Positions 27,905-29,007 of a stretch of DNA of 64,000 bases are shown piece by piece. The position numbers were made by a program, and so were the translations under genes. The stretch comes from Aotearoamyces nothofagi. Its lineage: Eukaryota; Ascomycota; Leotiomycetes; Leotiales; Tympanidaceae. Location: the NCBI GenBank assembly GCA_015345905.1, contig JADDTR010000003.1:1116001-1180000 (forward strand), given 5' to 3'. Numbering within the stretch: the first letter of the stretch is position 1; the number at the start of each line of letters is the position of its first letter. The notes beneath the pieces were generated by a model. That model was given only the letters and a program-made list of their open reading frames with translations, was not told where the DNA came from and searched no databases.

Positions 27905-28072
27905 GGTGATATCTAATCCCAGCCCAGGAATCTTAACCAATTCGAGCCCTTAATTCTGGCATTATTTCGTTGACATTTGCAGGACGACGCAGAGAAGCGA
28001 ACTAAATTGTAGCATAACTTTTTAGTAGTAGTATATATTAAAATAAGCGATTTTTTATTTCAAACATGCCAA
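27905..28072. other. Short region between the G-patch gene and the tRNA
   Basis: Upstream flank of both. An AT-rich TATATTA-like element lies at about 28034, roughly 35 nt before the mature tRNA 5' end, where upstream TATA-like elements assist Pol III in some fungi. Confidence 0.4.
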
Positions 28073-28238
28073 ACTCCAGTGACGCGTAAGTTATCGCCAC
28101 TGCCTATGATCTCAATCAAAGGCTAATCAGTTTGTCGTGTAGAGTGGTTAGCGTGTCGTTCTTATATTCTTCGGGCAACCGATTAATATGATCTTTCAAG
28201 AAATGCGAAAGTCGTGGGTTCGACACCCACCTGGAGTA
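28073..28238 (+). tRNA. tRNA-Ile (anticodon UAU) with an anticodon-loop intron and a 57-nt insertion in the D-arm
   Basis: Acceptor 5' ACTCCAG (28073-28079) pairs 7/7 with CTGGAGT (28231-28237), discriminator A 28238. D-stem ACGC (28082-28085) pairs 4/4 with GCGT (28151-28154) and the D-loop is AGTGGTTA (28143-28150), provided 28086-28142 is removed. Anticodon stem TCGTT/TGCGA (28156-28160/28204-28208) has one T-T mismatch; the loop gives CT-TAT-A, so anticodon UAU. A second intron, about 28167-28202, follows position 37 as in other eukaryotic tRNA-Ile(UAU) genes and contains AATAT that can pair with the anticodon. T-arm GTGGG-TTCGACA-CCCAC holds a perfect B box (GGTTCGACACC). T6 at 28247-28252 is a Pol III terminator. 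Pairs 1-72 and 10-25 are A-T where the human gene has G-C, so both sides changed together, which argues for a working gene rather than a relic. Confidence 0.85.
28086..28142 (+). other. Candidate spliceosomal-type intron inside the tRNA D-arm
   Basis: The 57-nt segment begins GTAAGT, has GGCTAATCA (CTAAT branch-like) ending 15-20 nt from its 3' end, and ends TGTAG. Length, donor, branch and acceptor match the spliceosomal introns of the protein genes in this window. Removal restores a canonical D-arm (ACGC-AGTGGTTA-GCGT). It splits the usual A box between positions 13 and 14. Splicing is inferred; a simple insertion is the alternative. Confidence 0.45.
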
Positions 28239-28244
28239 AATCCT

Positions 28245-28262
28245 TCTTTTTTATCTTTTTTA
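28245..28262 (+). terminator. Pol III terminator of the tRNA gene
   Basis: Six T at 28247-28252, with a second T run at 28256-28261, begin 9 nt after the discriminator base. These are normal Pol III stop signals. Confidence 0.8.
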
Positions 28263-29007
28263 ATCATACCCGTTTCACTTTAATGCTCAGCTCCTTTATT
28301 TTATTTGTTTTTTACTTCTAAGGAGCGTTTTAAGCACTTGCTAGTAATCATTTTTGGATTGGAGGTTCGGTTATTTTGGCGTGCTAGACGAGGCTAATAT
28401 ATGCGATATCTGCTTTCGAGTACTGTATCGTGTCTCTGCAGCTGTTATATCACGACAACAGCTTTAGCTAAATTTCCCCAAATAACCGCGTGATAGTTGA
28501 TATTTATTAGAAGGCTAGCCAGCAAGTAATATACCCGGCCTAGGATACCAGCCCGATGTATGCCAGTTGTACATTTCTTACTGTAATGAAGAGAGATATA
28601 ATGGCCATGATTAATTAAATCGACCACATTACTAGGGCAATCATCGCCTCAAGAGATGCTGAAAACGAGTTGGCTAGCAAGTTCAAATGTATTCTCGACG
28701 ACTCTTGCACATTGTACTCGTGAGTAGATGATGCAAAGGGTGCATTTTTCTCGAACTAGAGACATTATCCAACTAATTAATGTATCCTCCTAAAACAGCC
28801 GAAAGGCTTCTAGGGCTCCTTTACCATGGCTCTCCTGTTTGATATTTATAAGGAGCACACAATGTCAATAGAGGAGCTACGGGCAATATAGAAGGGCAAC
28901 ATGAGGGGATTTGATTTGGTGGGAGTCCGTTTTGGTAGGACCATACGGTAGAGGTATGTACTTGTACAAGTAGAAATGATCTTGGTTTGAACAAATCTTT
29001 AGCCAGC
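28263..29007. other. Intergenic after the tRNA, with dispersed-repeat copy C
   Basis: No gene supported. 28441-28490 is repeat copy C. The stretch up to 29007 is the 3' flank of the PPR gene. Confidence 0.45.
28441..28490 (-). repeat. Dispersed repeat, copy C
   Basis: The string ATCACGACAACAGCTTTAGC (28449-28468) is identical to one in copy B, and the flanking bases remain similar (TTTCCCCAAATAA versus TTTTTCCAAAATTA). The end itself is a small inverted repeat, GCTGTT/AACAGC, which resembles a terminal structure. Confidence 0.6.

Follow-up and report, generated by a model that had tools for sequence, protein, structure and literature searches.

Architecture of the tRNA-Ile(UAU) gene

The window, which is the whole 64,000-nucleotide stretch of DNA analysed here (contig C3, 1116001–1180000, of an assembly of 25,475,336 bases in 55 contigs), carries a tRNA-Ile(UAU) gene on the forward strand at 28073–28238. 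Letter-by-letter reading shows that the acceptor stem and the D-stem close only with 28086–28142 removed; ACTCCAG (28073–28079) then pairs with CTGGAGT (28231–28237) at 7/7 positions, and ACGC (28082–28085) pairs with GCGT (28151–28154) at 4/4. The 5' exon (28073–28085) consists of the 5' strand of the acceptor stem, positions 8–9 (TG) and the 5' strand of the D-stem. The 57-nt segment 28086–28142, predicted to be a spliceosomal-type intron, lies between tRNA positions 13 and 14, starts with GTAAGT, contains GGCTAATCAG and ends with TAG; its branch-like site is CTAAT (28123–28127), whose second A (28126) precedes the 3' end by 16 nt. The second exon (28143–28166) is formed by the D-loop AGTGGTTA (28143–28150), the 3' strand of the D-stem, the 5' strand of the anticodon stem and the stretch CTTATA (28161–28166) with the anticodon TAT (UAU). 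A tRNA intron at the canonical position 37/38 is a separate segment of 36 nt (28167–28202); it is predicted to base-pair with the anticodon stretch. Position 38, the 3' strand of the anticodon stem, the variable loop, the T-arm with the B box GGTTCGACACC, the 3' strand of the acceptor stem and the discriminator A make up the third exon (28203–28238).

Removal of both introns yields a cloverleaf with a UAU anticodon. Pair 10–25 of its D-stem is A-U, and the anticodon stem has 4/5 pairs, with one G-U pair and one U31/U39 mismatch, the latter being counted against the explanation favoured below. The minimum-energy fold of the mature tRNA obtained with ViennaRNA differs from the cloverleaf, which carries little weight because minimum-energy folds of unmodified tRNA frequently miss it. 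Putative signals for RNA polymerase III (Pol III) accompany the B box. A TATA/AATAAG-type element (28032–28047, with TATATATT at 28032–28039 and AATAAG at 28042–28047) lies 31 nt 5' of the mature end and resembles elements at other tRNA genes, and terminator-like T6 runs follow at 28247–28252 and 28256–28261; the A box is split by the intron. The preliminary description of 28073–28238 had reported the stems that close only without 28086–28142, the GTAAGT start, a CTAAT about 16 nt from the TAG end, and the 37/38 intron, B box and T6 run. All of these features were found again, and the closure of the stems was confirmed by reading, by ARAGORN and by the solver described below.

Detection by standard tRNA finders

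ARAGORN finds no tRNA anywhere in the 64-kb window and, with its intron options, none in 28000–28300 while the 57 nt are retained. Compared with and without the segment, the locus gives a cloverleaf in ARAGORN only after the 57 nt are deleted, and this cloverleaf is labelled Ser because the second intron is placed at 34/35. No Rfam family matches the window at the Rfam cut-offs, and relaxing the threshold to E up to 1 brings up no tRNA near the gene. ARAGORN with intron options also misnames several of the split tRNA genes described below and puts a false intron in three of them (L029, L030 and L031), and for this reason a solver was used in which tRNA structure takes precedence in placing the cut. 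The solver scores the acceptor together with the D-, anticodon and T-arms and is free to include a 37/38 intron, a GT..AG segment, or both. At the tRNA-Ile(UAU) locus it gives no fold unless a segment is removed, and cutting at GT..AG yields a score of 25.0; among the 256 possible pairs of end dinucleotides, GT..AG ties for the best score with GT..GT alone. In tRNAscan-SE 2.0, non-canonical introns are sought with the archaeal model (PMC8450103), and this restriction may be a reason why such fungal genes escape notice.

Split tRNA genes in the genome

A pentatricopeptide-repeat protein encoded in the window shows 44–53% identity to its 20 best matches, the named ones being mostly from Pseudogymnoascus and one from Claussenomyces, and a carbamoyl-phosphate synthase is 94% identical to those of Chlorociboria and Lachnellula. 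Both proteins are thus closest to Leotiomycetes, a class-level check that bears in part on the Helotiales named in the preliminary description.

tRNA genes were sought with the Rfam model RF00005 in a non-exhaustive search in which 63 of 791 candidates were scored. Reading by eye showed that L029, L030 and L031 have acceptor halves that pair only once a GT..AG segment is taken out of the D-arm. Further candidates were obtained with T-arm patterns, from which 59 stretches were chosen by eye and then fetched. The solver output together with two genes read by eye amounts to 57 entries, and setting aside four doubtful ones leaves 53 resolved tRNA genes, of which 36 are unsplit and 17 are split by spliceosomal-type segments. 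Isotypes were assigned from the anticodon and the initiator Met from its general look. The non-exhaustive list does not include Gln(CUG), Pro(AGG) and Arg(CCU), and a gene that looks by eye like Gly(UCC) (L093) stands outside the 53. tRNA-Phe(GAA) was not found in the genome with two patterns, and it may hold an intron that hides it from pattern searches.

The introns of the 17 split genes are 50–76 nt long. Fifteen of them follow tRNA nucleotides 8–28: nucleotide 8 in Gln(TTG) (L047), 9 in Leu(AAG) (L037), 10 in Cys(GCA) (L029), 13 in Ile(TAT) (the gene in the window, L001) and Arg(TCG) (L033), 17 in Thr(TGT) (L031), 18 in two Lys(CTT) genes (L034 and L038) and Gly(CCC) (L057), 23 in Ala(AGC) (L030), initiator Met(CAT) (L035) and Val(TAC) (L051), 27 in His(GTG) (L040) and Trp(CCA) (L070), and 28 in Ser(GCT) (L068). 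In Asn(GTT) (L032) and Ser(AGA) (L036), both read by eye, the intron lies in the T-stem directly 5' of the B-box core GGTTCGAGTCC. These positions are biased because the gene search was anchored on an unbroken T-loop; likewise, an unbroken B box in all 17 split genes was a requirement of the search, and hence no conclusion is drawn from it. An additional 37/38 intron is present in 12 of the 17, placed by the solver in L001, L030, L033, L037, L038, L040, L047, L051, L057 and L068 and by reading in L032 and L036. The proposal that a predicted spliceosomal-type intron interrupts a tRNA gene that keeps its 37/38 intron is therefore supported by like segments in 16 further tRNA genes, and the preliminary description was not only correct at 28073–28238 but understated.

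The four entries set aside showed no convincing isotype or anticodon arm and were dropped. Two are tandem tRNA-like genes in L062 (G000:C19:381000-382300), with similar bodies, odd anticodon loops (ATCATT.. and ATCGTT..) and 37/38 inserts of 82 and 94 nt placed by the solver. The other two, L054 (G000:C9:145700-146700) and L028 (G000:C23:266621-266764; acceptor scored at 5/7), have an acceptor, a D-arm and a T-arm and may be pseudogenes or contain several introns; no cut in L054 was convincing, hence its removal from the counts.

Splice sites, branch motifs and intron length

All 17 segments start with GT and end with AG, and 16 of them start with GTRNG. The branch motif YTRAY with its A 6–22 nt from the intron end occurs in 17/17 tRNA introns, compared with a mean of 3.5 and a maximum of 10 in 2000 shuffles that kept the intron ends fixed; for CTRAY the corresponding figures are 15/17, 1.8 and 9. 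The ends were also left free, in that any segment of 40–120 nt could be removed from 16 genes, namely the 15 split genes with introns outside the T-stem and L054. GT..AG was then best or tied for best in 13/16, and the next of the 256 end pairs in 5. Four of the 13 (L031, L034, L038 and L057) tell little alone, since 18 to 38 end pairs tie in them. In L030 and L040 another cut outscores GT..AG on the tRNA scoring devised here (26.5 against 26.1 and 26.2 against 24.2), and the third miss is L054.

A splice model comprising the 5' site, the branch site and the 3' site was used for comparison with mRNA introns. Motifs alone gave too much noise in a search for mRNA introns, with 32 found and 18 in the reversed control, and a first filter on coding flanks was too strict, with 11 introns found, four of them with both motifs, and none in the reversed control. 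A looser coding-flank filter gave 17 putative mRNA introns in the window, 46–108 nt long with a median of 65, and five in the reversed control. The model was trained on the 25 introns starting with GTRNG among 95 coding-flank candidates from the window and the loci, all of them putative and the set as such having no control. Median scores are 12.2 for the tRNA introns, 7.6 for the 25 putative mRNA introns in leave-one-out scoring and -2.2 for 5074 decoys, which are random, unfiltered GT..AG segments of the same lengths, although the model favours any GTRNG intron because its training set was itself picked for GTRNG. The score of the 28086–28142 intron is reached by 5/5074 decoys and that of the weakest tRNA intron by 79/5074. 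The segment 28086–28142 thus has the extended GT/AG consensus, the branch site and the mRNA-intron-like length and motif strength of the U2 type. It is very probably a spliceosomal U2-type GT-AG intron, and its host a functional nuclear tRNA-Ile(UAU) gene; at least 17 tRNA genes of this Leotiomycete-like genome would carry introns of this kind.

Paralogues and copy number

Intron-free paralogues exist for Leu(AAG), Ser(GCU), Asn(GUU) and Ala(AGC), and the junctions of the spliced forms align with them without a gained or lost base. Spliced Leu(AAG) (L037) and its unsplit counterpart L022 are equal at 80/82 letters, spliced Ser(GCT) (L068) and L026 at 70/81, spliced Ala(AGC) (L030) and an unsplit neighbour at 58/72, and spliced Asn(GTT) (L032) and L003 at 69/84 columns, 10 of the 15 differences being the short 37/38 intron of L032. 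The two Lys(CUU) genes are alike at 70/73 positions and carry their introns at one position, and these introns, 64 and 59 nt long, differ in sequence. Aligned in all pairs, the 17 tRNA introns score at best 0.62 per base, which gives no sign that one mobile intron was recently copied among these genes. Patterns made from the Lys and initiator-Met introns gave no match in contig collections; as these comprise prokaryotic and viral sequences, little follows from this.

Ten spliced tRNAs (initiator Met, Cys, Trp, His, Ile-UAU, Gln-UUG, Thr-UGU, Val-UAC, Arg-UCG and Lys-CUU) were compared with the genome by BLAST. The 19 pieces obtained fall on 11 loci, all of them among the 17 split genes, and no unsplit copy was seen for any of the ten queries. 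No intact copy of initiator Met, Cys, His or Ile(UAU) was found in the non-exhaustive genome searches, and unsplit copies would be expected among the 63 scored of the 791 Rfam candidates, since unsplit tRNA genes reach up to 67 bits in that search. The only other exact match to the initiator anticodon arm, a second GGGCTCATAACCC at C7:688794, has no tRNA around it by eye. The status of a sole copy is not claimed for Trp, since L053 has two possible readings, CCA and UCC, and may be an unsplit Trp gene.

The tRNA-Ile(UAU) gene and its spliced form match this locus alone in BLAST. A pattern search for UAU anticodons showed no other such gene among the 100 of 144 matches listed, and the spacing of the pattern is such that it misses the gene at 28073–28238 itself. 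The preliminary description had asked whether this is a disrupted copy or the only UAU decoder and had proposed a genome search for other tRNA-Ile(UAU) genes. The single BLAST locus largely removes the concern about a disrupted copy, while a divergent second copy could exist given the 100 of 144 matches that the pattern search covers.

Insertion-disrupted pseudogenes with working copies elsewhere could in principle account for the split genes, and the non-exhaustive genome searches and the odd tRNA-like loci L028, L054 and L062 leave some room for this. It is nevertheless improbable, since all 17 fold into cloverleaves with good stems once cut, the inserts are alike in their GT..AG ends, branch motif and length yet not in sequence, and initiator Met, Cys and His, which are indispensable to any cell, were found as split genes only.

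Transcription signals

An AATAAG-type box matching at least 5/6 letters lies 20–34 nt 5' of the mature end in 37 of the 53 genes, that is, in 11/17 split and 26/36 unsplit genes, whereas shuffled upstream sequences give means of 2.3 and 4.9, respectively. A clear AATAAG box is absent from this interval in 6/17 split and 10/36 unsplit genes. A run of at least four T residues follows 0–55 nt behind all 17 split genes. The boxes and T-runs common to split and unsplit genes suggest that Pol III transcribes both, beginning upstream of the acceptor.

The introns might also be spliceosomal with the split tRNAs made by RNA polymerase II (Pol II) within longer capped transcripts, an explanation that overlaps with the one preferred here and differs only in the polymerase. 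Spliceosomal introns are usual in Pol II RNA, and many of the tRNA introns lie in or beside the A box. Such an origin seems unlikely, given the T-run behind each of the 17 split genes and the upstream boxes like those of unsplit tRNA genes, and the suggestion in the preliminary description that a transcript may need Pol II is not borne out by these signals, which resemble those of uninterrupted tRNA genes.

Among the 53 genes, the first run of five T residues lies at least 25 nt behind the tRNA in 7/17 split and 7/36 unsplit genes (for example L030, L033, L034, L038 and L061). Hairpins of at least five pairs occur in 12 of these 14 long 3' trailers, a raw count given without a shuffle control, and the hairpin in the L030 trailer has a T-loop-like TTTGATT.

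Comparison with other introns of stable RNA genes

According to PMC9602550, the red alga Cyanidioschyzon merolae has a nuclear tRNA-Ile(UAU) with three introns, at 12/13, 37/38 and 53/54, and PMC3978253 treats the disrupted tRNA genes of this alga as mediated by a bulge-helix-bulge (BHB). Interruption of the D-arm or T-arm beside a 37/38 intron is thus a feature shared by the nuclear tRNA genes of C. merolae and those described here, and the split genes could by analogy contain ectopic tRNA introns that the tRNA splicing endonuclease removes at a BHB. The BHB central helix (4/4 pairs, with the register free by 1–2 nt) is, however, possible in only 1/17 split genes, compared with 4.5 for shuffled ends, and the ends of the 28086–28142 intron form at best 3/4 pairs of the central 4-bp helix. 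BHB introns require neither GT..AG ends nor a CTAAC-like site, whereas all 17 segments carry GT..AG and YTRAY. Cleavage at a BHB is therefore highly improbable for these introns, which differ from the BHB-mediated introns described for C. merolae both in their splice-site and branch motifs and in failing the BHB test.

That an unrelated acceptor-like 13-mer lies by chance upstream of a broken 3' tRNA half, as a lone locus could permit and a 13-nt 5' exon too short for a BLAST report would not contradict, is hardly credible and is made very unlikely by the genome-wide recurrence, since 17 loci behave alike, four paralogues show the unsplit form, and BLAST pieces flank the spliceosomal-type intron at one locus for Thr, Lys, Trp, Val and His. 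The pairs of BLAST pieces for Ile and Gln flank the 37/38 intron, and initiator Met, Cys and Arg give the 3' part only.

Canonical eukaryotic tRNA introns, which are processed by the Sen endonuclease and the Trl1 ligase, are represented by the 37/38 intron in the 12 split genes that have one. Unlike them, the introns that split the genes follow nucleotides 8–28 or sit in the T-stem and have splice-site motifs. Introns of the mRNA type have reportedly been described in fungal nuclear rRNA genes. They share with the tRNA introns described here the presence of an mRNA-type intron in a gene outside Pol II transcription, but the host there is an rRNA gene of RNA polymerase I and not a tRNA gene. 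Among the matches listed in the open-access literature, none describes a spliceosomal intron in a nuclear tRNA gene; most subscription papers lie outside that search. The type of intron is thus known, and the tRNA as its host gene appears to be new.

Proposed processing route

The preferred explanation, a spliceosomal intron in a functional Pol III-transcribed tRNA gene, suggests, as the most likely processing route, one in which the enzyme, the order of steps and the polymerase are inferred from the observed motifs and from known pathways. Pol III would start upstream of the acceptor by means of the TATA/AATAAG element and stop at the T-run. The nuclear spliceosome would then use GTAAGT, the branch A in CTAAT and TAG to join 28085 to 28143, thereby rebuilding the D-arm. 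The tRNA body could fold only after this step, and trimming, export, recognition by the tRNA endonuclease and removal of the 37/38 intron would follow, so that one tRNA would pass through two unrelated splicing systems, one after the other. The same general route would apply to all split genes, the D-arm or T-stem intron being removed in the nucleus before 37/38 splicing. Both the tRNA endonuclease and the export factors recognise the folded body of a tRNA, and the spliceosome is hence expected to act before the endonuclease; a contact of Sen54 with the D-arm is reported in PMC4090602.

The mRNA-splicing machine probably has to help make the tRNAs of this fungus. It is also likely that the spliceosome is an essential tRNA-processing machine, in that 17/53 genes, including the only initiator-Met, Cys and His genes found, would need it, twelve would need both systems in a fixed order, and the internal A box, relieved of its role by upstream Pol III boxes, would have become open to introns, which would have been gained many separate times.

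Current teaching sets nuclear tRNA introns apart as a class of their own, cut by a protein endonuclease. If the proposal is correct, the many spliceosomal tRNA introns would tie translation to the mRNA-splicing machine, and Pol III transcripts without an mRNA-type cap could be common substrates of the spliceosome. The split genes would then also offer a natural collection of intron gains in a setting where the exons are hardly free to drift, and the failure of ordinary tRNA finders to detect them would be explained. How the spliceosome handles first exons with merely 8–28 tRNA nucleotides becomes testable.

U6, 5S and other Pol III genes

The introns of fungal U6 genes are reportedly the subject of Canzler (2016). 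The nearest precedent for a spliceosomal intron in a Pol III gene is the mRNA-type intron of fission-yeast U6, and the tRNA introns resemble the U6 introns of fission yeast and other fungi in lying in a Pol III gene for a non-coding RNA, as described in PMC10484740. The U6 introns presented there differ in that they occur in one snRNA, near catalytic bases, and are explained by reverse splicing, whereas many different tRNAs are affected here. In further contrast to fungi with U6 introns, the two U6 genes found in the A. nothofagi genome are unbroken. These two and 16 5S genes match the whole models without an intron, so that spliceosomal-type introns are not general to the Pol III genes of this genome.

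A further locus, L056 (G000:C12:263200-264300), gave no Rfam match at the cut-off and is possibly an unnamed Pol III gene; it has an upstream AATAAGCC box, an A-box-like TGGTGGAGTGGTC, three motifs of the GGGTTCGA type and an end of seven T residues.
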